Shown: in pieces, positions 1,083 through 30,799 of the stretch
Layout: each line of letters opens with the position of its first letter
Position numbering within the stretch: the stretch's first letter is position 1
DNA from: Fragilaria crotonensis
Lineage: Eukaryota; Bacillariophyta; Fragilariophyceae; Fragilariales; Fragilariaceae
Direction: 5' to 3'
Length of the DNA stretch: 30,799 nt
NCBI GenBank assembly: GCA_022925895.1
Contig: JAKSYS010000716.1
Coordinates: 1 to 30,799 of the forward strand
Program-made: the position numbers and the translations under genes
The notes under the pieces: generated by a model
Database searches by the model: none
Told to the model about the DNA's origin: nothing
What the model saw: only the letters and a program-made list of their open reading frames with translations

Positions 1083-3393
1083 ATGGATGATGAGAGTAGT
1101 GAGTCATTGTATCTGCTCTAGTTCTCGCACTTTCCAACATAGCATAAGACAGATACTAACATTCGGTACTTTCTCAGATATCGATATAATCGCGCTTGGT
1201 ATTGCTGGTCTAAAGATGGCATCCGCGGGAGCAAAGGTTCTCAATGCTGTTGGAGGTACCAAGGGCTTGGCATCGGTCGGCTTATATCACTGCTCACACT
1301 GCAAAGGACGGCGAGGCCCTTGCCAATGTGGATTTGGATGTCCCACTCCAACAAACGCACTGAGGAAAACCCAGTGTTTTCCTATTCACACGGGAACATC
1401 ATGCGACTCTTGCGGCTCACAGAATTTTCCTGGCAGTCGCTTCAAGTGTCAGACGTGTTCAGATTTTGACCTTTGTCAGTCATGCTACGAAGGAGGTCGT
1501 CATGACAATACCCACCCGTTCTTCCACATCGCTGCGCTTGGAAGGCTTCCGGAGTTATTGCAGCCTCGGTGTAATCCTCCTGCGGCGCCGCCAATTCCCA
1601 CACCATCGTACAAACATCAGCATCATTCATCCATATCCTCCTCTACCTCAACTATTACCTCTTCATCCTCTTCTTCCTTCATGCGTCCCCGGCACACTGG
1701 CATTTCTTGCGATTCCTGTGGCGACCAGAACATGCAAGGTAATCGCTTCAAATGCCAGACCTGTGATGAGTTCGATCTGTGTCAATCCTGCTTCGACGAT
1801 AACATCCATGACGGAAGCCATGCCTTTGCCCTTATTGTCAAAGAAGGCGCAACTCCTATCTTTTTGGCAAAACCTCAAAATGCCGTCTCGCAAGCCGCGA
1901 CGTCGTCGCCACTTCAGGCAAACCCTCCTCGACAGCCGCAGTACTATCCTTCAGACGTTCGTCATCAAACGTTCACAACTGTTTCTGCCACCTCGCCATT
2001 TGCTCCGAACATCAAAGGAATGCTGAGTGAATCTGACGGCTCAGACTCCACTCCGTACCTTATGGAGTCAAGCACGAGTCTTTCGTCGTCACAACCGCAC
2101 CTACGTTTGTACCAGCATACTACAGATGCTTCAAGCTTCTTGGATACGTCCAGCACGAGCTTGAAGGCACCTCGTCCCTTGGACCTGGTGCCGTATGAGC
2201 CACGAGGCTGGCAAAGCTCCGAAAACATGAATGCAATGCCCAAGCCCTTGGCAGCACAAAACGACATTGGCAACACCGCTGCTACCTCCCTACCTCCGCG
2301 CCAAAATGCAGGAGAACCAATCCACGTGCTTCATTGCCATGTCTTTTGCAAGGGCCCCAGGTGTCGTGGTGCGACGCAGTGCATCGTTGGCCCGCGATAC
2401 ACGTGTGCCAAATGCCCGCGCTCTGTCGATCTTTGCGAAACGTGCTACTCGTCCCAAGCGGCCCATAACATTTCTCACTCCTTCAAGCGATTCGACCGAG
2501 CTGACTCTTCAACGTACATCACTTGTCCTCCCCAGCAACAACAGCAACAGCATCAGCAGCAGCAGCAAGGGCGGCAGACTGGTCACGAACAGCATCCAAA
2601 TGTATTTTGCAATGGACCAAGGTGTCGCGGGGCGACACAATGCATCGTGGGCCCTAGGTACACGTGTGCGAATTGCCCACGTTCTATTGATCTGTGCCAA
2701 GCATGCTACACCTCCAAAGCGGCTCACAACATTTCACACTCCTTCAAGCGATTCGATAAGGCAGGTCTTATCGCATACGTACTATGTCCCCCCCAGATGC
2801 AGCAACCTCAGCAGCAGCAGACTCGTCAAGAACAGCATGCTAACGTCTTTTGCGATGGGCCAAGGTGTCGCGGGGCTACACAATGCATTATTGGACCTCG
2901 TTATACGTGCGCAGAATGTCCACGTTCTATTAATCTTTGTCAAGCATGCTACACATCCAAAGCGGCCCACAATATTTCTCACTCTTTCAAGCGATTCGAC
3001 AAGGCTGGTCTTACGACGTTCGTATTGTGTTCGCCGCAGATACAGATGCAGCAATCGCAGCAGCAGCAGACTCGACAAGAACGGCATCCAAATGTGTTTT
3101 GCGATGGGCCAAGGTGTCGCGAGGCGACACAGTGCATCGTTGGGCCTCGGTATACGTGCGCCAATTGCCTACCTTCTGTTGATTTTTGTCACAAATGCTT
3201 CTCCTCCCAATCCGCACACAACCCGTCGCACTCCTTCAAGAGATTCGACAAGCCCGGATTGTCCTCGTTTGTCATGTGCCCACCTCTGAGCCAAGAGTGC
3301 CCACGGCCAGCAGTTTCCCATTCGCAACCAGCCAATGTTGGACCTGGTGGAAGTCAGGGTTGGAGCTGCGCCTCCCAATCGACCATCAACTAA
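1083..3393 (+). CDS. ZZ-type zinc-finger array protein
   Basis: ZZ domains are small cross-brace zinc modules that bind proteins, often histone tails, ubiquitin-system partners or autophagy cargo; the partner here is unknown. The chosen start is ATG 1083 with an intron at 1099-1177, which gives a clean N-terminus (MDDESN then IDIIALGIAGL) and a product of about 743 residues ending at the stop at 3391-3393. Two classic ZZ domains follow (C-D-S-C-G...F-K-C-Q-T-C...F-D-L-C-Q-S-C...H), at about 1384-1530 and 1693-1845. After a Ser/Pro-rich linker come four nearly identical ZZ-like units separated by Gln-rich spacers. The frame closes shortly after the fourth unit, but codon-like sequence continues in other frames to 3728, so the true C-terminus may be longer. 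The ZZ family is certain from the Cys pattern; the cellular role is not. Confidence 0.85.
1099..1177 (+). other. Intron 1 of the ZZ-finger gene
   Basis: The donor is GTGAGT. A ctaac branch-like motif sits at 1156-1160 and the acceptor is ttctcag, giving 79 nt. Splicing joins ATG 1083 to the frame at 1180 and removes the implausible Cys/Ser-rich leader that an unspliced reading would give. Confidence 0.75.
2341..3290 (+). repeat. Four tandem ZZ-like coding repeats
   Basis: Four units begin at about 2341, 2602, 2845 and 3094, with periods of about 243-261 nt. Each encodes V-F-C-x-G-P-R-C-R-x-A-T-Q-C-I, then Y-T-C-A-x-C, a C-x-x-C-[YF] pair and H-N-[IP]-S-H-S-F-K-R-F-D. They are linked by Gln-rich spacers of cag/caa runs. 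Units 2 and 3 are the closest pair, suggesting recent unequal exchange. The fourth has drifted most (L-P-S-V-D-F-C-H-K-C). Confidence 0.85.
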
Positions 3394-17820: not shown

Positions 17821-18240
17821 GGTGGTTACAGGTTCTGATCGAGGATATTATAATACTACTCCAAGTGTTGCAAGTTCTAACGTGGTTCCGTCCTCCAGAC
17901 TTGAGACGCAAAGTGCGTGCAAAATGAAAATGGGAATGGAGTGGCAACTAATGACAATGAGAGCATGTGTGTAATATGCATGCAATTCTCAGTCGAGGTT
18001 TTGGTCGTTGAAAGCGAGTGTACTGCGGATTTCTGGATTTTTGGTAGTAGTAGAACTTGGTATGTTTTCGTACAGTTGTAATCCGAGTACTCCAGGGACA
18101 TGCGGAAATCCTTCTTGCTGGGGTTAAGGATCACCGTTTTTCACCGTTAGTTTTTGTTTTAATTATTTATACAAAACGATTACTTATATTTAAGATTGCC
18201 GTAAAAGGTCGGACTTGCGCTTGTGAGCTTGGCTTGCGTT
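17821..18240. other. Host-element boundary spacer
   Basis: This is the promoter side of the GOST gene and, somewhere near 18,120-18,180, the probable left edge of the mobile block, where base composition turns A/T-rich (tttttgttttaattatttat). No gene is supported. The 24 bases at 18171-18194 match the reverse complement of 29203-29226 at 16 of 24 positions. That is too weak to call a terminal inverted repeat. Confidence 0.4.
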
Positions 18241-18252
18241 TTTCCAAAACCT

Positions 18253-18328
18253 TCTTAGCAACGAAGATGGTAAGAAAAACCATCTTCGCTCGAAGACGTT
18301 TGCTTCCGAATCTCTTCGTGCTAAGTAT
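18253..18328. repeat. Fold-back inverted repeat
   Basis: cttagcaacgaaga at the left is mirrored by tcttcgtgctaag at the right, with one unpaired base. Inside it is a second hairpin, cgaagatgg / ccatcttcg, with a nine-base loop. The structure lies between the A/T-rich left edge and the transposase. It may be a subterminal repeat of the element or a small MITE-like insertion. Confidence 0.6.
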
Positions 18329-18598
18329 CTTCGCATTTTCTTCTTCGTTTCACGCCGTTTTCTACTTGGATCGAAGAAGCACGTCACATAAAAATTTGGA
18401 CTGTTTGGTCTCACATCATATTTGCCTTCTTATTTTGATGTAACACATTCATTAAACTTAAAGCAACATCATGGATGCGGGAATGTTGTGACACCCGACG
18501 ACATGCTTCGCCTTGGTCTGATTGCCGGGCTTTGCTGAGGATCGAATTCAGAAGTTGGCTCGTATAACGAACCTGAAGCGCTTCCGTGCTCATTACAG

Positions 18599-19467
18599 GT
18601 CGAATCCATCGTTTATGCCTACATATGGGCAGATTTGCTAAGTACAACAAATCCAGATGCTCGGATTGATGCTGCAAAAGCGGACTTCAATGCATATTTG
18701 ATGTGCCTTAACTTCCTTAAATGTTATCCCAGCGAGTCTGTCTTGGCGGGCAGGTTTGGCATGTGTGAGACAACAACACGAAAGTGGCGTTGCTTCTTTG
18801 CAAGAAAAATTCAAGCATTAAAAACGGACAAGGTATGTTATCATGGCATGTGATTTGTTTCATATAAGAACTTGCACTACCCTCCAACACATGCTTTGTT
18901 GTGGCGCAGATTTTGTGGCCTACGCGTTGGACCCCAGGTCATCCTGATTTTGTAAATGAAGATGTGCCCGTATTTTTGTTGACAGTTGACGGAGTTCATT
19001 GTCGGATGCAAGAACCCCAGCATGCAACCAAATCAAAGGATCCGTCATTTTACTCGCATAAATTTAAACAAGCAGGTGTCAACTATGAACTTGGCATCTC
19101 CGTGTTTGATAATGCTTTGGTGTGGATGAATGGCCCATTCAAAGCCAGTCGACATGATATCACAATTTTCCGACGTGCTGGACTACAAACGCAAATTCCT
19201 CAAGGCCATCGTATTATTGGCGACTCTGGATACACTGGAGAACCTGTTGTCATAAGTACTCCTAATGCACATGATCCTGTGGCATTGCGAAAATTCAAGA
19301 GCCGCGCTCGTGCACGTCATGAATCCTTTAATGGGCGTATCAAAAACTTCAAGTGTTTAGATGAGCGTTTTCGACATGGTGTGGAGCAACATAAAGTGGT
19401 GTTTGAAGCCGTATGCGTTATATGTCAATATCAATTGGAGACAGGCTCACCGTTGTTTAGTACCTAA
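18599..19467 (+). mobile_element. PIF/Harbinger-type transposase (DDE_Tnp_4), two exons
   Basis: It cuts and pastes Harbinger-type DNA transposons through a DDE nuclease. Exon 1 carries a helix-turn-helix-like segment (S-V-L-A-G-R-F-G-M, then T-T-R-K-W-R) and ends L-K-T-D-K at 18832. A 77-nt intron follows. Exon 2 has V-D-G-V-H-C-R (first Asp), I-I-G-D-S-G-Y-T-G (second Asp) and R-H-E-S-F-N-G-R-I-K (Glu), ending at a stop at 19467. All three catalytic residues are present. The 5' end is uncertain: the frame is open from 18539, there is no ATG until 18701, and a tcattacag acceptor-like site at 18598 suggests an upstream exon I could not place. The clean splice and intact triad suggest it decayed little, if at all. 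Confidence 0.88.
18833..18909 (+). other. Transposase intron
   Basis: The donor GTATGT and acceptor ttgtggcgcag give 77 nt at phase 0. Splicing joins K-T-D-K to I-L-W-P-T-R-W and changes frame correctly from exon 1 to exon 2. Confidence 0.85.
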
Positions 19468-19492
19468 ACTTTAGGGATTCATCGCCACGTAT

Positions 19493-20014
19493 TTATCGTC
19501 CATAATAACTTGTGATAAATTTGCGGCGTTTGTTTTCCTGATATATGTGACCCCGAAATTGATCCAATGTAAACAATTGATATTCAGTGCGCGTGTTGTA
19601 CAATGCTTGTGGTGTCATCTGAGTATGCAGTCCATTGGAAATGTCATCTTTAAGCAAACGTTCCGCATCCGATCCTTCCCAGCGCGGAACTCCATTGCTG
19701 CTATGTGTTGCTTGCGGTCGCAACTGTCGATCGTGCATCAACGCTACAGCATCAGAGGCGCGGCGGGCATTTTGACTTCTGGCAAGGACACGCATTGATG
19801 CCAACCGACGGGTAAACAAATCCACCGGAAACGCTGCGTACTCAGGGCGGGATGCGTACACTTCGTGCGATCCCATTTCTCTTCCACTGACCGGGATCAT
19901 TCCAGATGCTAGATCTCGTTCAAGTAGCTTTTTAGCTTCACTTTTGTTCCATGGTACGGCAGTGACGTGGCGAGCGCGGGATGGAGCTGGCAGACCAAAA
20001 ATGTGCTCGTCCAT
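19493..20014 (-). CDS. Protein with two W/S/LL repeat domains
   Basis: The chosen start is ATG 20014 (MDEHIFG), giving 173 residues. Two related segments of about 50 residues begin at Trp22 and Trp112. Each has W-x-x-S-[ED]-A-[KE]-[KR]-L-L-x-x-D-[LI]-x-[SN]-G, then [VL]-Y-x-[ST]-R-x-E-Y, a Phe and a second basic helix ending with R residues. I do not recognise a named family. The Trp-anchored helix pair and basic character recall SANT/Myb-like DNA-binding units, which second proteins of Harbinger elements often carry, so it may be the DNA-binding partner of the transposase; that is inference. It converges on the transposase, the two stops being 25 nt apart. Confidence 0.7.
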   Translation of the reverse strand: MDEHIFGLPAPSRARHVTAVPWNKSEAKKLLERDLASGMIPVSGREMGSHEVYASRPEYAAFPVDLFTRRLASMRVLARSQNARRASDAVALMHDRQLRPQATHSSNGVPRWEGSDAERLLKDDISNGLHTQMTPQALYNTRTEYQLFTLDQFRGHIYQENKRRKFITSYYGR

Positions 20015-20218
20015 AGTGACAAGGCTCAAATATTTGTGTCAATAGAATGTAGCACCATGTCGGTTGTTCACATGTAATCTCGGGAATAGAAAAATTTGGA
20101 CACGTTACACATTGAAACCCGCACGTTTACGATTTAAATGTGTTTAAGCAATGGTAAACAACACATGTTATATCATTATTCAGCAGTCCAACGCTCCTGA
20201 AAAGGCATTTTCTGGTGT

Positions 20219-20776
20219 CTATGGATTTGCCGTCTGAATGCCCATATCCAACAACATTTGCAAATAATCCACACGATTTAACAATTTGAGGTGATGAACT
20301 TTGTTTTGAATCACTCTGCGTTCGGTGGTCCCGGGTCTTCCGTACACGTCCGGTTTGCGATTGCAAATAGTTTTCAAGCCCACTACACCATGCAATCCAC
20401 CGTTGGATTCAATGTCTTGCAACAATGTTTTCAATTGTTGTGGCTTAATCCCAACAACTCTCGGTTTTGATGAGTCTTGCAAGTGTAAAAGACCTCGCTG
20501 TCGCTGATGCGGGAATGCGTTAATGCCTAACGATACGAGCAGCTCCAAATAGGCAACACGACTTAACTTTTTCAACCGCTGAGTTTTGTTCTGCACTGCA
20601 CGACGCATCGCTGTTCCAGGCAAGCCATAAACATCTGGTTTGGCGTCGCACAGGGTTTTCAATTTAAACGTCTCGTGCCATCCACCCTGATCTTCAATGT
20701 CCTGCAGTAACTGCTTCAGCGCTTCTATAGGAAAGCCACGGCAGTCCGCCTCAGGTGCAGAAATTACTGACGACAT
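20219..20776 (-). CDS. Two-copy KPD-x-YG domain protein
   Basis: ATG 20776 opens a 185-residue product made almost entirely of two copies of one unit, at about residues 20-85 and 115-180. The pattern is L-K-x-L-L-Q-D-I-E, then G-G, L-K-T-[LI]-C, K-P-D-V-Y-G-x-P-G, R-R-x-[VI]-Q-N-K, and a final Y-L-x-x-L helix ending G-I. I do not recognise a named domain. The basic R-R/Q-N-K helix suggests nucleic-acid binding. A third copy sits in the divergently transcribed neighbour, about 395 nt away start to start, so the two genes probably share both promoter and origin. The protein is compact, without signal or membrane segments. Confidence 0.8.
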   Translation of the reverse strand: MSSVISAPEADCRGFPIEALKQLLQDIEDQGGWHETFKLKTLCDAKPDVYGLPGTAMRRAVQNKTQRLKKLSRVAYLELLVSLGINAFPHQRQRGLLHLQDSSKPRVVGIKPQQLKTLLQDIESNGGLHGVVGLKTICNRKPDVYGRPGTTERRVIQNKVHHLKLLNRVDYLQMLLDMGIQTANP

Positions 20777-21170
20777 TACGTTAGAACCAACAAATTGTGA
20801 ACTTGTTCAGCGGTAGAAATACGTTTTGTCTTTGTAGTGTGTATGTGTTTGTTGTGTATGCAATATTGGCAGTTACTGAAGTTTCAATCGTGGATCATTG
20901 CCAGACACTTAGTTACCTGCAACTTGAATAAGAAATTATTCCAACGATTGGTTTTAATGTGGAACTTGTTGCTTACCTATTGGCTTGCTGTACTGCAAAA
21001 CCGCAAGAACATAGAATTAGTATGTTGTTGTCACATCATGTGCGGACGTTGTGTTATTACATTTCCATTCACTTGAATCATTTTAAATTGCACGAATTCT
21101 TTGTGGTTTTGGGTGCACTCCTTCACATACGATAAAACATTTACACAGTTTGTTGCTCACAAACCTGCAC
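20777..21170. promoter_or_regulatory. Divergent promoter of the two KPD-x-YG genes
   Basis: This is the 394-nt spacer between ATG 20776 (-) and ATG 21171 (+). It is T-rich on the + strand with no protein-like frame. Direct regulatory elements cannot be assigned; the call rests on the back-to-back gene arrangement. Confidence 0.4.
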
Positions 21171-24100
21171 ATGTCCGGATCATCTCGTCGTTTCTCACAA
21201 CGCAATTTGCAACGCCCAGCTTCGCAACCAGGAACCCCTGTCCGCCGAGTCCAAGGTAATTTTCCATTATTGTTGTCATCGCCATCAACACTGGGTTGTT
21301 GTTAACCGTTACCCCAAGCCACGCCTAGGAAGACGATCCCGGCCCTGCTGTTGCGTTTGACGTTAGAAGTTCCAATCCAACCAACAACTTTCTTATTGGT
21401 TTACGTGAGATTGTCCTTAAAGCTTTGTTAAGCGATATTGAAGCTTCGGGTGGGTTTTCAGCACCTACGTTTAGTTTAAAACAAATTTGCAATTCCAAAC
21501 CAGACATCTACGGCCCACCAGGGTCCGAGCAGCGCCGCCAAGTCCAAAACAAGGTTCAAAAACTTCGCAAATTAGCCCCATTTGAATATCTGTCCGTGCT
21601 TAATTACTATCGTGTTTCATCTGGTGCCTTAACTCGGTCTTTCCGTCCTCTTGATTCTGCAGCTTCAATCAGTGAAGAGTCACTGTCAGAACCTGTCACC
21701 CCAGTTCGTTTGCAACGCCGTGCTGTTGCAAGCCCGTCCCCTTGTTTGGAACGACACCAAATTGTTCCGTTTGATAGTCCACCTCACCACCTTCCGCACC
21801 GTTCTCCGTCACGTCAGCTTCTCTCTGCATCACGACGCCTTGCAATGAACACTCAGCTTTTTTATGATGATTTTAATCTGGATGAAGTTGGTGAGTAAAG
21901 CCACGACAGCATAATGATTCTGTTTGGGAGTTTTGCTGTGACTTATCTACTCTTCGTTCTTGTTCTTGATTTCACAGATGTTATTGCTGTCAACTTAGAT
22001 CATCCAGAGCGCAATCGTGAGGTCATGGTATTTACCGTTAATGATGTTCAGAATCAAGGCAACATGTATAACTGTTTCACAATTATGCTGCGTATTGATC
22101 CTCGCGATGCGGCAGTCACAGATCGTTGCACCGCTTATGTTGTGTCAGAGACGGAATTGTTGATTTCTTATCCTGCATTGGAATATTTCTTCTTTACGGA
22201 TAGCGCTCAACGCAATGAACGCCTTAAAATTGGCACGGACTATGATTCTCAAGTGCAGTTGGCACAAGACATTTGCATTAATGATGTGCGTCGCGCGCCG
22301 CAACGTGTTGTGAAGCGATTGCTACTTCGTTTCCCTCAAGACATAACACTGGCAAATGTGTTCAATCAGTATTCCTACGTAATCCGGTCCAAGATGCCAA
22401 TGGATTATGCATCAACTAGTTTGTTTGGTGATCCGCCAGTTAAAGTGTTGACAACGCACATGCAGTGGATGATTGCTGATTTAAATACGCATCGCAAGGC
22501 CATAATTGAGGCTGCCGAAGCCACTCCTTTGGACGTGTTATCGAACAACTTTGCACGTATGTTCCAGCATGGTGCTTAACACATTGTTGACTGTTTATGT
22601 GTGATCATAATGAATACTAACCACTGCGTTATATGGCATTTGCGTTGTAGGTATATTTCAAGTGACGTCGGCAACTTCGCCTTTTGCAACCCCAGTAGAG
22701 TCCAAGGCTGTTTCAAGCGCCACCGGACACTTTCTACCGCCACCTTCCTTCGCGGCATCTGCGCATCAACGTGAACAACCTTTGGTGTCGGCATTTGCTC
22801 CATGTAATTCCCGCGCTACCTCATATGCGTCGGCAACAGCTCCTGTGCCTCGTCCGCCGGTGATCTTGCAGCAAGCTTTTCCAGCACGTTCGGCGATAGC
22901 TCTTGCAAATCCGGCCGCCGTGCACAACAATCCATTTGCTGCACCGCAACGGCAACCTGGTGCGCTTCCGGCAACCGCATCGCCCGCATTGATGGCTGAA
23001 CCAAAGCCAGCAGCAGTACTCTTTCCCTTGGGTGCAACACTGCATTGCACACAGCCACCCACAACAACCAATCGATACTTCATGCCACATACTACGATGC
23101 AATCAACCAAAGCCGCCATTGCCTGTTTTTCACCAATTGCAACTTCTTCACGTTTGGCAAATGCTGTTGCATCAGCTGCAACAATTGCGGATAACACAGT
23201 GGCTCTGCACAGAGCTGCATTGCAACCGCAGGCCATTGAAAACCTAGCACTGTCCGCTACCACGTCTTCTTTGGTTGTCCCAGCAGCGGCAGTTGCGGCC
23301 TCGTTGATTGGCTGCGTGCCACCAGCAATTGCAACAAACACCTGGATGATACCGGTACCCACGGATACTGCCAATCAGTCATTGATCTCTACCACCAACC
23401 GCACCAATGCAGATGTAAATGCCGATATCAAGATGGACATTGCAATGCGTGGTGCTATTCACATCGGACTTCCACCTCACCATTTGATGACACAACCACC
23501 GATTGTACCAGCAAACTCTGGGACAACGATCACCGCACTACCGTTGGGGGCTGGCTTTTGTTTGCACACTACAACCACATTACCAATATTACCAACCATA
23601 CCACCCACATCAAAGGTTGTTATTAACGTGCCAATCTCGCAAATGCGTGCTGCTGTTTCACCGCTAATGGCAATGACAGACACGGCAGTATTGAATGTCA
23701 AGCCTTTGCCTCAGTCAACAACGGTGGCGTCCATTGCATCTGCGCCTGATGTTGACAACGCTGTGTCCAACACGTTATTGTCATCAATGCATTTTTGTGG
23801 TCCATTCCAGAGCCCAGCGCCTGGTGCTACATTATCTGATGCAACTCTAAACAAAACAGACATAGGATTTGCGATAGGTGTTGCAACAGCGACACGGCCT
23901 CCCAAAGGAAGACTGATGGATATTGGCAAGCAACGTGCAAAGCGCCCTCCGGCAACACCTACACCAATGCGAAAAGAGCTTGGCCGCCCTCGCAAACGCA
24001 CCTGCGTTGCCAACGGCGTTACGCCACTAATGCTAACGGAGACTCCGCATCTGCATACGCAACGCCGATCATCACCGCGCTTGCGTGGCATGGTGCCTAG

Positions 24101-24215
24101 TCCACAAAACACTCCAGAGATATTGCATATGGACCGTGACGGAAACATAAACATGACTACATCTGCAGTTGCACCGGTGTCCGTGAATGATGCAGAAATG
24201 ATAGATATTTTGTAA
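21171..24215 (+). CDS. Four-exon KPD-x-YG / AT-hook protein of the mobile block
   Basis: Predicted exons are 21171-21255, 21333-21890, 21978-22571 and 22651-24215, totalling 2802 nt or 933 residues. Every junction is GT-AG and keeps frame. One KPD-x-YG unit (K-P-D-I-Y-G at about residues 84-89) follows a basic Ser/Arg N-terminus. Exon 3 encodes an unrecognised globular-looking domain of about 200 residues (M-V-F-T-V-N-D-V-Q start; L-L-L-R-F-P-Q-D-I middle). Exon 4 is a long Ala/Pro/Thr-rich, probably disordered region ending in L-G-R-P-R-K-R-T, an AT-hook-like minor-groove motif. Overall it looks like a DNA-binding architectural protein of the element. No enzyme motif is seen. The first junction is the least certain. 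Confidence 0.72.
21256..21332 (+). other. Intron 1 of the 933-residue gene
   Basis: The donor is GTAATT and the acceptor is taggaag, giving 77 nt. The nearer cctag acceptor at 21328 would break the frame, so AAG at 21332 is preferred. Confidence 0.5.
21891..21977 (+). other. Intron 2 of the 933-residue gene
   Basis: The donor GTGAGT and pyrimidine-rich acceptor ttcttgatttcacag give 87 nt at phase 1. Splicing converts two separate frames into one (D-E-V joined to D-V-I-A-V-N). Confidence 0.8.
22572..22650 (+). other. Intron 3 of the 933-residue gene
   Basis: The donor is GTGCTT, a tactaac branch-like motif sits near 22,614-22,620, and the acceptor is gcgttgtag. The 79-nt removal joins F-Q-H-G to I-F-Q-V-T-S and restores frame. 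Confidence 0.75.
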
Positions 24216-24263
24216 CCATGAACATTAAAGCAAGAAGCAGTGAAAGCCCGCGATAAAGGGATA

Positions 24264-25823
24264 CTATATTAGTGAAGTGCAACATCGCCATGGATCAGTT
24301 GGCATAGATTGCTTGCTTTTAAGGAGATTTTGTTTTTTGCCATGTTCGTAAAACAAATATCCAGCCATCACACCATGGTAATTGGCTTGCCGTGTTTGCG
24401 TAGAGCACAAATAATTCAAGTTTGCTTGACACAATGGTAATGCTGTTTTTTCGTTGCTGTCAAAGATCACATTGTCATGCACTGTAATAGCGTGACTTGA
24501 TGTGCCATCGGAGGCTTTGAGAATTACAACTGCCAATACCCCAGTCAAATTTGCGCGTAACAGATCAAACGTTGCTGCGTGTTTGATTTTGTGTGGCAGC
24601 AGCCAACCTGGCGTACTGGAAATTAACTTTGCCAGCTGTGCTAACACTGATGGATCATCCATAGTGCACGGTGCCGCTGCCTTGACCAGCATTGCCATTC
24701 CCTCCAAACCCACTGCCCACAATGCCGAGGCAAATCCAGAGAAAACACAAGTGGCCAAATGTCCTTGTGGGTAACGTATAGCGAGCTGCTTGCACCATTC
24801 TGTATGTACCGGAGCCTCTTCCAAACTTTCGCATTTTGCTTGACCTGGTGGGATGTGGATGAATCCACGTCCAGCTGATTGTCGCAAAATCGCAACATAT
24901 TTTGCACCAAACATTGATTGGACCTCTGTCGGAGTCATTGATCCTTGCGTTTGATCTGAATATTTTACCAAAACACATTCAGGTACGTCCGACTGTGTGA
25001 CAGGTTGCCATTTGCAATGTGTAATGACACGCACATCCAAAGATAAAGTCACAAGCTTTGGCACAGGAACAAAGTTGCTTCTTGACATTAACGACACTCG
25101 TCGCACATACTTAACAACACGCAAAGGAAAATGACGTTGCACAAAGCGTGCAGATAATTCCACCTCCTGTTGGTTAATCAGCGTGCGGCCATTATCATCC
25201 GACTTCCATTCTGCTCGTCCAATGAATAGTTTTTTAACCTTGTCGTAACGAAGATCAGGAATAACACTTGGCGTAGTTCGTAAATACTCCTTTTGCAATG
25301 CACGGTATGCCTTGACATACTCAAGTCGTTCTGCGGCCACTTGGTTTCGGTTTTGCTTATGTTGGGCACGACGTTCCTCCGTCCATGTCTGCCACAGGCG
25401 GCGCGCAGTGGCATTGGCACGATTTTGCTTAGCTACCATAGTCCGCATTTCCGCCCATGACTTATAATTGAGCCGTTGCATGGCGTGAGCAATAACATGA
25501 TTCATTTCATCTTTGCAATGTGGAATTTTCCATGGCAATTGGTGATTGAGAACATGCGATCGAAGCACATGCGGGATTTCCAGACCTGCTGTTACAGCTT
25601 TCGGAGGCGCCCGCGGCTGGGGTGGGTGCTCCAGTTTGACACTCTCAAGACAAAGCAAACAGTACAGCTTCTTGCTGCGCCTTTGCATGCATATGTAATG
25701 CCCAAGCATCTCACAGCGACTACATGACTGGTCGCATCCACGTGCTACATCGTCCGGATCAAGCTTTGTTGAACCACCAGGCCGTCGACATTTGTTGGCT
25801 GCGCAACAGTCATGATTTGTCAT
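24264..25823 (-). CDS. Zinc-finger and papain-like cysteine protease protein
   Basis: ATG 25823 gives 519 residues. The N-terminus is Cys-rich (Cys6, 7, 12, 30, 34, 37, His42, Cys45, 55, 58), matching one or two zinc-binding modules. A basic helical region (about 100-200) follows. Near the C-terminus, C-V-F-S-G-F-A-S-A-L has Cys359 at the start of a helix, with Gln353 exactly six residues before it as in papain-fold oxyanion holes. S-S-H-A-I-T-V-H-D-N has His444, and I-F-D-S-N has Asp455. This is a plausible Cys/His/Asp triad; protease, deubiquitinase-like or transglutaminase-like activity are all possible. It could process element proteins or modify host chromatin proteins; both are inference. 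Its ATG overlaps the stop of the upstream acidic protein. Confidence 0.72.
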   Translation of the reverse strand: MTNHDCCAANKCRRPGGSTKLDPDDVARGCDQSCSRCEMLGHYICMQRRSKKLYCLLCLESVKLEHPPQPRAPPKAVTAGLEIPHVLRSHVLNHQLPWKIPHCKDEMNHVIAHAMQRLNYKSWAEMRTMVAKQNRANATARRLWQTWTEERRAQHKQNRNQVAAERLEYVKAYRALQKEYLRTTPSVIPDLRYDKVKKLFIGRAEWKSDDNGRTLINQQEVELSARFVQRHFPLRVVKYVRRVSLMSRSNFVPVPKLVTLSLDVRVITHCKWQPVTQSDVPECVLVKYSDQTQGSMTPTEVQSMFGAKYVAILRQSAGRGFIHIPPGQAKCESLEEAPVHTEWCKQLAIRYPQGHLATCVFSGFASALWAVGLEGMAMLVKAAAPCTMDDPSVLAQLAKLISSTPGWLLPHKIKHAATFDLLRANLTGVLAVVILKASDGTSSHAITVHDNVIFDSNEKTALPLCQANLNYLCSTQTRQANYHGVMAGYLFYEHGKKQNLLKSKQSMPTDPWRCCTSLI

Positions 25824-27448
25824 TTTGCGCAACGTTTCTTGTCGCTGAAGTTCGCGTAGCTTTGTGCATGATACTCCAGTTCTTCTGGGGTGAGTTTGAT
25901 GGACTTGCTGGCCGGCAAGCGCGTCGCACCACGTCGACGCTTGCGTTGCATGCCAATGGCTCCTGTTATTGGTGCCAATTGACCCATGTTTACCGCTGGC
26001 ACCTCCTCTGCAAAGTCCGTAGTTGCATCGTTGTTTGTGTCAACACTGCTCCCGCTATTGTTATTTGCATCATTACTGTCTTCTGAATGTTCATCGTCGT
26101 CATCACTCTTCTCGGCATCGCTGTTGTATTCAGCATTCTCTTCTTTCTTGCTGTCGTCATTGTCACTGACATTTGCATGTCCTCTGCTACCCTCACAGTC
26201 TTTGGCTTTGCTGTCATCGTCAAAACTATCATCTGCATCGCTGTTGTGTTTGTCGCTGTTCTCTGCTTCTTGGTCATACACGTCACTGCTTGCCGCATCT
26301 CGGTTGTTGTCGTCGTTACTGTCCTCTACATCGCTGTCGTCGATGATATCATCATCATTGTTTGTGCCATCGTTGTCGTTTGCTGCATTTCGGTTGTCTT
26401 CATCACTGTTCGCAGTATTGCTGTCGTCGTCGTTACTGCCTTCTGCATCGCTGTTGGCTTTGGCGCTGTTCTTTGCATCTTGATCATACGCGTCACTGTT
26501 CTCAGCATCCCTGTTGTTGTCATGCTTACCGTCCTCTGCATTGCTATCGTCGACGTTCTCATCATCATTATTGTTCTTGCCATCGTTGTTGACATCATTT
26601 TCACTCTCAACTGCATGTTGATGTTCCGCTGCATTTCTGTTGTCCTGAACACTGTTGCTGCTTTTGCTCCGCTTAGCTTTGTGTTGCTTGTTATCTTTGC
26701 TTTTTAGATCAGTTGTCCCTGACTGTTCAACCGCAATGATTGTGATTGCCGGTGGCTTTGCATCGTCATGTTCGGAAATAGTCTCTGCACTTTGGTTTCC
26801 ACTGCTTAACGACAACAACATGTTTGCAGCGTTGTCCGCATTACTTTGTTGTAACTGTGATGTCCAGTTGCCAAAACCAGACTGATCGACAATGATTGTA
26901 TTTTCTTTCATTTTGTTAACGAAGTTATTTGTTGCATGCGCAGGCGGCTTCAGATACTTGGTATAGTAAGGCTGTTGTCGAACACATTCTGTGCTGCGTC
27001 CTGAAAAAAACATCAGGCGATCACAGAGCGCAATGATTGATTGCACACATAAGGCTTCCACATCCGACGCGATCGGTAGGTATGCAGTTGTACTGCTGGT
27101 TGTTTTGCGACTTGCCGGACTGCGACGCAGTTGTAAGCCTACCTTTTTGCTTAAAAATTGTCCCATGCCAAATGTCTTTGGTATTGGAAAACGCCACAAG
27201 CCATCTTTTGGCATAACGGGTTTAACATTGCCTTTGTGTTGCCATTCAAAACGCTGCGTGCCAACCATGACACACCAATCAACAACAAACAAAAGACACA
27301 TCCATCCCGACTGAAATGCTGCGTTCACAACATCACACCGCAATGGATAATTAACCGGAAGTTGGATTTGCACGAATGAGTCATTACCATTAAACCACGA
27401 AGCTGCGTGCGAAAATCCCATTTCCAAATTTATGCGGGCTGGAAGCAT
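25820..27448 (-). CDS. Acidic repeat protein segment (probably continues upstream)
   Basis: The frame opens near 27,448 and ends TGA 25820-25822, overlapping the next gene's ATG as ATGA. The first 170 or so residues are globular-looking (F-S-H-A-A-S-W-F, then Q-I-Q-L-P-V-N-Y-P-L-R-C). A long Asp/Asn/Ser/Glu stretch (about 26,040-26,680) contains two imperfect copies of a roughly 46-residue unit (D-N-N-R-D-A, Y-D-Q-[DE]-A). The C-terminus is basic (M-Q-R-K-R-R-R-G), giving an acidic-then-basic tail typical of nuclear proteins. The N-terminus probably belongs to the protein encoded upstream (27,390-29,156), because the two frames overlap and read as one sequence after a one-base change near 27,420. 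Confidence 0.6.
   Translation of the reverse strand: MLPARINLEMGFSHAASWFNGNDSFVQIQLPVNYPLRCDVVNAAFQSGWMCLLFVVDWCVMVGTQRFEWQHKGNVKPVMPKDGLWRFPIPKTFGMGQFLSKKVGLQLRRSPASRKTTSSTTAYLPIASDVEALCVQSIIALCDRLMFFSGRSTECVRQQPYYTKYLKPPAHATNNFVNKMKENTIIVDQSGFGNWTSQLQQSNADNAANMLLSLSSGNQSAETISEHDDAKPPAITIIAVEQSGTTDLKSKDNKQHKAKRSKSSNSVQDNRNAAEHQHAVESENDVNNDGKNNNDDENVDDSNAEDGKHDNNRDAENSDAYDQDAKNSAKANSDAEGSNDDDSNTANSDEDNRNAANDNDGTNNDDDIIDDSDVEDSNDDNNRDAASSDVYDQEAENSDKHNSDADDSFDDDSKAKDCEGSRGHANVSDNDDSKKEENAEYNSDAEKSDDDDEHSEDSNDANNNSGSSVDTNNDATTDFAEEVPAVNMGQLAPITGAIGMQRKRRRGATRLPASKSIKLTPEELEYHAQSYANFSDKKRCAK
26040..26660 (-). repeat. Acidic coding microsatellite-like repeat
   Basis: Trinucleotide-rich sequence (gat, aac and agc in the coding sense) encodes Asp/Asn/Ser runs. 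It includes two imperfect copies of a roughly 46-codon unit. The same DNA on the + strand yields a long Val/Ile/Cys frame that is only an antisense shadow. Confidence 0.75.
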
Positions 27449-28006
27449 ACCAAGTTTGAAATGATTTCATGTCGTTGAAAGGCATATCAAGATTTGAGGA
27501 AGCCGTTGTGGTGCTTTGCAATGCTTTGGCCATGGTCATAATGAACAAAGTTGGATTGGATGGATGAATGGATGCAGCATCATATTCCGCACCCTCCGCA
27601 CATGGATCAAAATATACAAAACCACACACAGGCGCACCGTGCTGTGGTTGTGTTTTAGACTGATAATGTGATGTGTTGAGCATCATCAGACATGTCCAGT
27701 TACCATCCACTTCTTGACAAACTGCACACACCGATGGACGGGCCAAAAATGCTGCCTGCTCGCGAATGTACGCCATGACAACAGCAGCGTGGCTTAAAAA
27801 CTTATCTGTGTCCAATACTGCATGAAAGTGAGGTGCTGTGTTGTCGTCACGTTGCAAAGCAGCGGTAGTTTGTAAGTACTGTTGAAACAATGTTTGCATG
27901 CGGTGTGCATGCCGCAAAACAATTGGTGAAACAATAAACATGTGTTCCTGCCAGAGAGCATTGTGGCATTGCGCATCATGCAGCTAAGCAGTAGCATCAT
28001 AACGGC
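27390..28006 (-). CDS. Middle segment of the GNAT-block gene
   Basis: A continuous frame reads L-H-D-A-Q-C-H-N-A-L-W-Q-E-H-M-F-I-V-S-P-I-V, then H-F-H-A-V, a paired C-A-V-C, and G-N-W-T-C-L-M-M-L-N followed by G-F-V-Y-F-D-P-C. The W-x(4)-L...Y-F-D-P pattern is reminiscent of Cys-peptidase folds but not diagnostic. It lacks its own plausible start and follows directly from the GNAT frame through a frame change near 27,970-28,150, where either two short introns or one 205-nt intron fit. It probably encodes part of one large protein with its flanking frames. Confidence 0.5.
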
Positions 28007-28011
28007 TGGCG

Positions 28012-29156
28012 TTAATGGACACTGTCCCCGCAATTGCAGGCGTTCACGCCACGACAATTGACATGGGTAATGCCAACAAACAGGTGCATCCTGCGATGAT
28101 GCCAAACTGTCCTTGAAGCAGTCTTGATCCCACAACAAAGCCCGTTTACACACCAATTGACTTGAGCATTAGTAATTGTATGTGATACCAAGGCACAGAA
28201 ACATGCTTGGTCAATTTGGTTTGAAGGAATGAATGCTTTGACGCACCCTGGCGGCAACAAAGCATATGAGTTGGACAGCGCTGCTCCCTGGCGGAGTTTG
28301 CAATACGCCGGCAACTCCAACCACAACCATTCGGATGGTGCATTGACGTCAGCATCGACATCGCAGCATCAGCAGCATCAGCATCAGCAGCGTTGTCGTT
28401 AGTGTCATTCATGACATGTGGCTTCATCCATGGGGTGCTATTGACAATTTCTGCGACGGACCGGGGCATGCCTCTGTTGGCAGTGGTAACTGTGCTTAGT
28501 TTGAATCCGCGATTTTCAAAGCGGCGGGCTTCTGTGTGGCCTTCTGTATGCACCCGGACCATCATTGCACAAGTGACAACCTTTTGCAGGGGAGGAATGC
28601 AACATTTGCCGGCAAGGAGTAATAGCAATATGCCTAAACCACCAGCGCGGAACTCCTCGTCAACACCAACATACATGATCACAACGGTAGGATGGTGCAG
28701 AACAAACGATATGGCTGCCACAGCTTTGCGTGTTGTTGCTGTGTCATCTGGATATGCCACAACTAACGTGTGACACGTTGAAAGCAGTTTGGAACATACC
28801 AAGCTGTCGTCAGCACATTCGGCGGCAATGGAATGATACAATGCATGCACAGAAGAGATCAGTGAGGTTTCGATTGCATTGCTTGCTGGCACGTGCAGCA
28901 CATGGTGCAATGGTGGAAATCTTTGCTTGGCAATGTGATAGACATCGCAACTGTGCAGCCAAGCCGGCAATGCATCGCTACAAGGATGCCAGATGCGCCA
29001 CAGTTTATATGGCAATTTGGCTAAACCATCAGTGCAGTCGAAGAAGTTTGTCACTGTCTGGCGCAGTTCATCAGTAGTTGACATGTCTTCCAAGGGGTGG
29101 CTCTCAATAGACGCCGTCATGTCTTCCAAGGGTAGGCACTCAATAAACGACTTCAT
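28012..29156 (-). CDS. GNAT-like acetyltransferase domain, N-terminal part of a large protein
   Basis: ATG 29156 opens MKSFIECLPLEDM; a longer frame to 29213 has no earlier ATG. A duplicated L-E-D-M segment opens the protein. A GNAT domain follows at about residues 120-220: V-V-I-M-Y-V-G-V-D-E-E-F-R, then G-G-L-G-I-L-L-L-L-L (the acetyl-CoA pyrophosphate loop and helix) and a later A-R-R-F-E-N-R-G-F, the usual C-terminal GNAT strand. GNATs acetylate amines, including histone lysines; the substrate here is unknown. In an Asp/Ala repeat near 28,380 the frame shifts by one; protein-like sequence (E-W-L-W-L-E-L-P-A-Y, then F-I-P-S-N-Q-I-D-Q-A-C) continues in the new frame. From about 28,180 a 77-nt GTATCA...cttcaag intron is possible. 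Confidence 0.6.
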
Positions 29157-29213
29157 AATTCTCTTTGGTTGAATTTGAGCAGTAGATTGATGAAAACCTG
29201 AGCTTAAAACCAA

Positions 29214-29550
29214 GTTTTACGTTTGTTCTCAGAGAATGCACTGCTGGCATTCAATTGCTATTGACCCCGAAACTGAGTACATGCATGTGCTAGCGTACGT
29301 CACTTCATTGAGCTACGACGCACTGGAGTACGACTCCATTGGTCTACTGTGCTACTGTGAGGTCTTGACACGCTCCACGAGTTTATTGTACATTCAGAGT
29401 CTCTATCCTTGTGGTACAGTGCTTTCTTCTCCCAGTAGCACTACTTGTACTAGTAGAGCTCCCTCTCTCATGAACATGAACAAAACAACTGGTGGAAATG
29501 TCGTGCGCTGAGCTACTATTGCTTGTATTGACATTTCACCTACTTCAAGA
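29214..29550. other. Right boundary of the mobile block
   Basis: From about 29,230 the sequence again looks like the host spacers, with six GTAC tetramers at 29,277-29,450. No gene is seen. The element edge probably lies near 29,200-29,260, where an interrupted ttctcagagaa palindrome occurs. No 3-bp target duplication could be assigned. Confidence 0.35.
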
Positions 29551-29552
29551 TG

Positions 29553-29895
29553 CTACAGTCGGATGTATTCAACAAAAACTACTTGCCATCCATCTTCCAT
29601 CTTGATCATGTTCACAAAGCACACAACAGTGCCGTTTGCCAGCATGCTGCGTACCTTGAGAGGCTGGGGTGTCACCGGTGTGTTAATTTTCCAGACTTTG
29701 CTTCACGGAACCCATGACCTTGCGGTACTTGCTTTCGTCCACGAAGTCATAGCCTGTTGAGTGACCCCGGTGCCTTGTTGTAGGAAGACCGCGCCCCGAG
29801 TCGCCGCAATTGAGGTCCTTCAAGTCCAAAGGAATGCCAGTAACGTTCTCGGTGACTAACGTAGAATTAACAACCGGGAAAGACTTCCAAAGCAA
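29553..29895 (-). pseudogene. Decayed 3' end of an unidentified gene
   Basis: Two neighbouring frames carry protein-like sequence. One, 29,895 to 29,683, includes G-I-P-L-D-L-K-D-L-N-C-G-D-S-G-R-G and Y-D-F-V-D-E-S-K-Y-R-K. The other, from about 29,690 to TAG 29553, includes P-L-K-V-R-S-M-L-A-N-G-T-V-V-C and M-E-D-G-W-Q-V-V-F-V-E-Y. Together they look like one C-terminus broken by a frame change. I do not recognise the family. Further upstream (to 30,060) the trace is lost among stops. Confidence 0.35.
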
Positions 29896-30799
29896 TCAAG
29901 ATGTCGTTCCTGTCGTGGAGAAGAATGATCAAACACACGCCAACAAACTCGTCGTTGCCAACATTGTTGCCATGCCAGCATGCTTGGGGCTGCGCTTTCG
30001 ATGAACTTCTCATCCACAAAGTGATCGCCTGCTATTTACAAAACAGCCAAATCCGAGGATGATGGTGACGTTTTCTCATCATCAGGCGGGCCTTGGATAC
30101 TAGAAGGGATTTAATAAGGAAATCTACGAAACACCATTAGATGAATACCTCAAGAAAAAACGAACAAACACTACAACATGTCCCCACTTACCATCAGTTC
30201 AAGAAGTGTAGGTTCGAACATTTGTTCTCGAAACTTCTAACGACAAGACAGCACAATACCTCAAACCCATCCAGACTGGTTGTTGAAGCAGTTAACGATC
30301 ATCTGGTGTGTTGATTCGACTGCCGCAAGGAGTCAGTAAGAATGAGACTTGAGGTATTGAACAGCATCGTCGTTTGAGGATTGAGATGCGTATGTGTAGA
30401 AGCTGCGATTTGTGTAATTGTGTACGAAATTACACATCCAGAATAGACTACACCCCTACAATTTCTACGTAAGATTCAGCGTAACTTTTGAACCTGTACA
30501 ACTCCTACAATTTGCTCTGAATGATTTCGATCGTCACTGGAAAACCTTCTTCAAGTTTGCATGTGATCAATCTTCGTGCGAAGAATCTTTGCAAAAGCCT
30601 TCGCTGGAAGCATGTTCGAAATTTTTGTCTCAAGGTAAATTTTTGGTTTGTAGCTGGCTGGCCTGAGAGGATTCTGTAAGGAACACGACCCAAATGACGT
30701 TATGACTTAACGATGATAAAACCGTTACATATCGCCAATAAAACCCGAAAACCGACCTCTCACTAGGGTTAAGAAAGATTACCCCATGTCCCTGGTACA
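29896..30799. other. Right spacer without a supported gene
   Basis: Two overlapping short frames (about 30,418-30,693, one on each strand) have no recognisable protein character. A cttcgtgcgaag hairpin lies at about 30,573-30,584 within gaag/cttc-rich sequence that resembles the region near 18,250-18,340. Nothing else is supported. Confidence 0.4.

Follow-up and report, generated by a model that had tools for sequence, protein, structure and literature searches.

The NuwaI transposons of the PHIS superfamily have been described as animal elements only, with a mean length of 4,462 bp, two open reading frames (ORFs), terminal inverted repeats (TIRs) that usually begin with GGG and a target-site duplication (TSD) of CWG (Han et al., 2015, PMC4482050). 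Enzyme genes as cargo are known from several other DNA transposons. A SET methyltransferase is described for the HarbingerS elements of oomycetes and TET/JBP for PHISTA, a Harbinger lineage of rust fungi whose duplications are TA; in all, TET/JBP genes occur in 11 transposon lineages, among which they pass (Kojima, 2025, PMC12730594). Ulp1, OTU and PHD domains are listed for Ginger1 and Ulp1 for Mutator (Bao et al., 2010, PMC2836005). Here we analyze a 30,799-bp stretch of DNA from the diatom Fragilaria crotonensis (contig JAKSYS010000716.1 of assembly GCA_022925895.1), which we call the window and which is the whole of contig C687 in an assembly of 62.1 Mb and 881 contigs. We find that positions 18096–30791 of the window (12,696 bp) are a single mobile element, a cut-and-paste DNA transposon. 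With good confidence we consider it best explained as an autonomous-type PHIS transposon with a NuwaI-type CWG target, carrying a long conserved accessory gene, BIG, in a role that we propose below; our confidence in the anatomy of the element is very high.

The termini of the element read GGACATG...CATGTCC and lie in an inverted pair of 25 nt (18092–18116 and 30771–30795) that is 88% complementary. The left TIR (18096–18116, plus strand) begins with GGACATG, and similarity to a second copy on contig C317 runs from 18092 on; the right TIR (30771–30791, minus strand) was placed by the inverted pair and by comparison with C317, and the last bases of the window after this end look like the C317 flank. 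In front of the left TIR stands the TSD CAG (18093–18095), which is present as one CAG at a matching empty site on contig C505. The left flank matches C505 at 97.4% over 2,929 bp and then at 99.2% over 623 bp, the match ends at the inverted repeat, and the single CAG is followed by different DNA, the first ~370 bp of which found no other match in our genome search. C505 is probably the other allele. The copy on C317 has both ends and is ~99% identical to the window element from end to end (99.3% in a left part of 4,520 bp and 98.7% in a right part of 8,262 bp), except for a 4.4-kb insert at the equivalent of window positions 22590–22600. This insert has direct terminal repeats of 521 bp that are 98.8% alike, and from its reverse transcriptase/RNase H region, judged by eye, we take it to be a Copia-type retrotransposon; it is a nested insertion, later than the C317 copy itself. 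A truncated copy on C55 retains the right 6.5 kb at 98.1% and has the same right end as the window, at 30.79 kb. Searched against the whole genome, the left end of the element gives 34 matches, two of which are the window and the C505 flank, and the right end gives 16.

An earlier note on this DNA, made from the sequence alone, had described a composite element at 18150–29260, and both of these limits have to be moved, to 18096 and 30791. The full-length copies with shared ends, inverted repeats and 3-bp duplications that it proposed to seek on other contigs do exist, on C317 and on a third contig, C312, with matching CWG triplets at all ten insertions described below. The earlier note had also named a finding that would speak against a large element, a transposase flanked on its own by inverted repeats at about 18.2 and 19.5 kb; for this element it was not seen, the right end in C317 and C55 being the one at 30.79 kb.

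Equal CWG triplets stand on both sides of 10 out of 10 distinct two-ended insertions among the loci that we fetched, namely the C317 copy (CTG), the C312 element (CAG) and eight short elements on C442, C46, C110, C765, C237, C869, C336 and C549. This count is drawn from the fetched loci and not from all 34 left-end matches, it omits the window and the one-ended loci (L003–L006, L024, L062, L064, L065 and the C55 copy), and it includes C108 (L060) and C237 (L026) only once because their flanks are identical. The short elements form a family of miniature inverted-repeat transposable elements (MITEs) of ~0.6 kb. One of them has 42 matches, 20 of which, counting the query, span at least 530 of its 593 bases, and the MITE ends are ~66–74% identical to the ends of the large element. 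Read by eye, with no background count, several MITE insertion sites (L021–L026 and L059–L063) have the form TAC-CWG-GTA wholly or in part, which suggests a longer palindromic target preference in MITE insertions.

The transposase is of the IS5-type DDE kind (DDE_Tnp_4, Pfam PF13359, E 1.5e-14), as expected of a PHIS or Harbinger-like element. PIF/Harbinger elements proper have a 3-bp TSD of TWA, and the CWG found at all ten two-ended insertions does not fit them. The earlier assignment to the Harbinger type thus survives as a large self-contained multi-gene element of Harbinger type, on account of the inverted repeats, the empty site and the elements on C317 and C312, but not as an element of the TWA type. 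The CWG triplet, found across the family and at the C505 empty site (the right side of the window being unverifiable), is that of NuwaI, and with NuwaI the element also has in common a Harbinger-like DDE transposase, short TIRs starting with G and a second putative DNA-binding protein. It differs from the same description in its size of 11.3–12.7 kb, in the additional genes P173, P185 and BIG and in termini that read GGA after the duplication in place of GGG, a soft criterion given the "usually" of the published account. NuwaI has a Myb/SANT domain in its second ORF; the repeat proteins of the window, C317 and C312 gave no Pfam match to such a domain. Single-sequence AlphaFold models of P185 and of the protease domain of BIG were too poor to use, with predicted local distance difference test scores of 34.7 and 38.5, respectively. 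Two other classes were considered and rejected: a Polinton/Maverick, since DNA polymerase B, retroviral-type integrase and packaging ATPase are absent from the Pfam matches of nine long frames, and a Plavaka element, since three Plavaka-like proteins that match contigs C449 and C733 by tblastn have no match (1e-3) in the stretches from the window, C317, C312 and C55. Scans of IMG/VR with single proteins, which reach close relatives only, gave no pattern match for the protease and two for the transposase, neither of them a relative, so a viral origin is without support here.

The transposase gene occupies 18470–19467 on the plus strand (start approximate). Its last exon is 18910–19467, preceded by an apparent GT-AG intron at 18833–18909, and the catalytic residues D, D and E are at 18988, 19222 and 19321, intact as the earlier note had said; the upstream part has one frame change relative to the C312 homologue. 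Next to it on the minus strand are the two small repeat proteins that the note had also recognized. The first, P173 (173 aa, 19493–20014), is an ORF with a homologue in C312, and it holds two W-x-GS-x-A-like repeats. Thirteen of its 15 genome matches, the window included, are on contigs with a related transposase. Thus, P173 looks like a core gene of this transposase family beside the repeat protein, and as a constant companion it would bring the core of the element to three genes. The second, P185 (185 aa, 20219–20776), contains two units of a repeat that recurs at 21413–21601 in a plus-strand protein. The region of this protein (21171–24215, start approximate) further contains a conserved 221-aa domain (21914–22579) and an Ala/Thr/Pro-rich tail with a terminal GRPRK, which we take to be AT-hook-like, in agreement with the AT-hook protein of the earlier note. 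The plus-strand protein is a probable DNA-binding partner protein.

The remainder of the coding sequence, at 24264–29156 on the minus strand, belongs to BIG, as delimited by open frames and by the C317 and C312 comparisons. From its 5′ end BIG is made up of a GNAT-like part (28146–29156), a middle region (about 26900–27941), acidic repeats (about 26000–26760, within an acidic frame at 25820–27448), a Cys/His-rich finger (25644–25823), which is PHD-like by the spacing of its Cys and His residues, and a papain-like protease domain (24264–25040), the latter two in a protease-like frame at 24264–25823. The frames that had been reported as protease with zinc fingers, acidic protein and GNAT protein are real, the last being recognized by Pfam in C312, but they are not separate genes. 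On sequence grounds they belong to one gene, BIG, about 1,600 codons long, because a single open frame of 1211 aa in C317 runs from the GNAT part through the middle and acidic parts to the finger and overlaps a 459-aa protease frame. In C312 a frame of 808 aa spans the GNAT and middle parts. The GNAT assignment rests mainly on C312 (Pfam E 7.8e-6, above the cut-off), because Pfam recognizes no GNAT in the frame of the window; this frame is 97% identical to that of C317. A profile of the C312 GNAT part reached at best E 0.57 against the PDB, and in NCBIfam its GNAT matches were below the cut-off only. A Ulp1/C48 peptidase in the middle region of the window-type and C312 BIG is not supported, as the His of the His-Trp...Cys active-site pattern is absent (NW and DW).

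With its one long frame of several domains, its low-complexity linkers and a protease at the end, BIG could also be read as a polyprotein that the papain-like domain cuts into acetyltransferase, acidic and finger parts in the manner of viral polyprotein proteases. This is the main functional rival to the role in chromatin that we propose below. The transposase is encoded by a separate gene, and among the Pfam matches there is no gene for a capsid or for replication whose product would call for processing, although no search was aimed at cleavage-site motifs; we regard self-processing as unlikely.

The age of the association between BIG and the transposase can be judged from the C312 element (37167–48457, 11.3 kb), which has its own ends with CAG on both sides and the same gene order and strands as the window. 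The two elements are 67% identical in the transposase, 46% in P173 and 31% in the 221-aa domain of the plus-strand protein, and within BIG 28% in the GNAT part, 25% in the middle, 25% in the acidic and adjoining part and 32% in the protease. Since gene order has persisted through such divergence, BIG has been part of the lineage for long, which disfavors a recent nested insertion, and we read the comparison as retention of BIG since before the C312 and window elements split. In the genome there are 29 merged places with a Harbinger-type transposase, and at four of them a protease place lies no more than 12.5 kb away. One of the four, on contig C259, was considered as a further Harbinger-type element with BIG and rejected, as its protease place adjoins a Plavaka-like gene. 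Relatives on C232, C41 and C690, whose element ends were not identified, showed no BIG in the 10.0, 10.0 and 9.5 kb examined, and they are probably elements without it. Two further relatives were examined for other cargo because of long gaps between their core genes. By eye, P173 and the repeat protein of the one on C631 (L067, 1849–4828) are separated by a Mutator-like transposase gene whose N-terminal domain is Ulp1-like (GYDCGIF), and the one on C378 has a long interspersed nuclear element between core genes; both are probably nested insertions.

The protease domain of BIG has 72 matches in the genome, at 67 merged places, and at 54 of these a Plavaka-like transposase gene lies no further than 3 kb away, where a rough estimate from coverage expects ~0.46. 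The number 54 is a lower bound, as the Plavaka-like search scored 81 out of 372 candidates, and a partner may have been missed at some of the nine places that have neither; the rest are the three in the Harbinger lineage (window, C317 and C312) and the truncated C55. This lineage is thus the only one among the 67 places in which the BIG protease adjoins a Harbinger-type transposase. Long Plavaka-like frames reach Pfam PF18759 in two of three cases (E 6e-9 and 3e-12), the third, more distant, frame not doing so, and in two stretches, from C449 and C733, BIG and the transposase gene face each other with their 3′ ends. The Plavaka elements of F. crotonensis resemble the window element in having BIG beside the transposase and differ from it in an unrelated transposase, in a protease that is 26–31% identical to that of the window (eight Plavaka-type or unpartnered rows) and in the middle of BIG, which has a Ulp1-like HW...NCGFG pattern with the His that is missing in Harbinger-type BIG. 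Plavaka-type BIG (C449, L029; C314, L033) has GNAT-like, Ulp1-like and papain-like parts, with dozens of genome matches; C314 has BIG with no Plavaka-like transposase in the 9 kb examined.

The Gln, Cys, His and Asp residues of the protease are invariant in 10 out of 10 aligned rows, and the GNAT regions of Harbinger- and Plavaka-type BIG match by profile (E 4.8e-6, probability 86%). A tree was built from 26 protease rows (the window and 25 loci, out of the 67 places). It unites the three Harbinger rows at 100/100 support, apart from 17 Plavaka-associated rows, the position of C312 being flagged as uncertain on account of its long branch. With this long branch and no known root, the tree tells neither the direction of capture nor how many captures there were, and we take the comparison to mean that a BIG-type gene was either exchanged between the two transposon superfamilies or captured twice.

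As BIG is typically a companion of Plavaka, and as nesting does happen in this family (the retrotransposon-like insert in C317 and, by eye, the insertions on C631 and C378), the element could be a nested or chance composite, in which a Plavaka-like element or its BIG sits as a functionless passenger inside an ordinary Harbinger-type element. The earlier note had held this to be the main alternative. We consider it quite improbable, as C312 repeats the gene set and its order within ends of its own and BIG is in the same place and orientation there and in the window despite divergence to ~25–32% identity. Furthermore, the Harbinger proteases group apart from the Plavaka-associated ones, the protease Cys, His and Asp are retained, and the window, C317 and C312 stretches contain no Plavaka-like transposase. 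That the non-transposase frames fall below the Pfam cut-off might have suggested a short Harbinger element at 18.1–20 kb that happens to adjoin unrelated host genes at 20–29 kb, but this is effectively refuted by the syntenic element on C312, the copy on C317 that extends from end to end and the one empty site on C505.

Some results weigh against an autonomous-type NuwaI-like transposon with a functional BIG. The position of the right TSD (30792–30794) reads CTG where the left one predicts CAG, and the contig stops 5 bases later, which prevents verification; the Myb-like nature of the repeat protein is without Pfam support. In the window, BIG is broken into several frames. The 55 gap runs against 24 mismatches between the window and C55 indicate that small indels are frequent between copies, and some of the breaks may therefore be assembly errors and others decay. 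The window GNAT frame has no Pfam GNAT match at E ≤ 1, that of C317 is below the cut-off (E 0.0084), Pfam names no protease family in the frames scanned from the window, C317, C312 or the Plavaka side, and the protease profile matched 0 PDB chains at E ≤ 10. The middle regions of Harbinger-type and Plavaka-type BIG have no significant similarity. Coding differences between the window and C317 are two synonymous and five non-synonymous in the 1211-aa frame and four and six in the protease, so that no purifying selection is evident at this short distance, where the copies are near-identical and the comparison is uninformative. Finally, the function of BIG is a prediction from its sequence.

We suggest the following for the NuwaI-like element with BIG as its accessory gene. 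From what is known of the family, the DDE transposase, with the repeat protein or proteins binding DNA, would excise the element and reinsert it at CWG, and it probably also mobilizes the ~0.6-kb MITEs with the same ends. The PHD-like finger and acidic part could bring BIG to the chromatin at the element, where the acetyltransferase part may open chromatin or modify the transposase, and the protease may remove a factor that acts in silencing or degradation, or else a ubiquitin-like tag. The net effect would be that BIG counters silencing or stabilizes the transposition complex, so that the element stays active. We favor a role in chromatin because of the finger and the GNAT part, and catalysis because the protease residues are kept; still, we put this anti-silencing or stabilizing role forward tentatively, at somewhat less than even chances. 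As such a function would be of use to any DNA transposon, it would explain the presence of BIG in two superfamilies. A bolder and slightly more doubtful version is that BIG is an exchangeable cassette for transposon survival, combining acetyltransferase, chromatin reader and protease, that has spread in this lineage between Plavaka and Nuwa-like Harbinger elements, two unrelated superfamilies, because it overcomes a silencing step that both face.

Cargo genes for enzymes are thus known already from DNA transposons, Harbinger included. HarbingerS and PHISTA resemble the present element as Harbinger-group transposons with a chromatin- or DNA-modifying enzyme, and TET/JBP occurs in multiple lineages as BIG does in two; the differences are that BIG unites GNAT, finger and protease in one gene and that the target of PHISTA is TA. 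Ginger1 and Mutator are likewise transposons with cysteine-protease domains, one listed family also having a PHD finger, but in Ginger1 the transposase itself bears the domain at its C terminus, whereas BIG is a separate gene with a protease of no recognized family. In the open-access literature, which leaves Repbase Reports and most subscription journals outside our scope, we found no report of a separate GNAT-finger-protease gene on a Harbinger, Nuwa-like or Plavaka element. Elsewhere in the window, positions 2339–3252 hold a tandem array with 3.7 copies of a 243-bp unit.

NuwaI as described comprises small two-gene elements of animals only, and the F. crotonensis element has the same type of target at 12.7 kb, together with a conserved multi-enzyme gene that is common to another superfamily. 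The allele-like empty site, the near-identical copy and the relatives that probably are without BIG provide a natural comparison for testing what BIG does. If transposons have acquired the same kind of chromatin-directed enzymes, by exchange or independently, this would point to a common barrier in the host.

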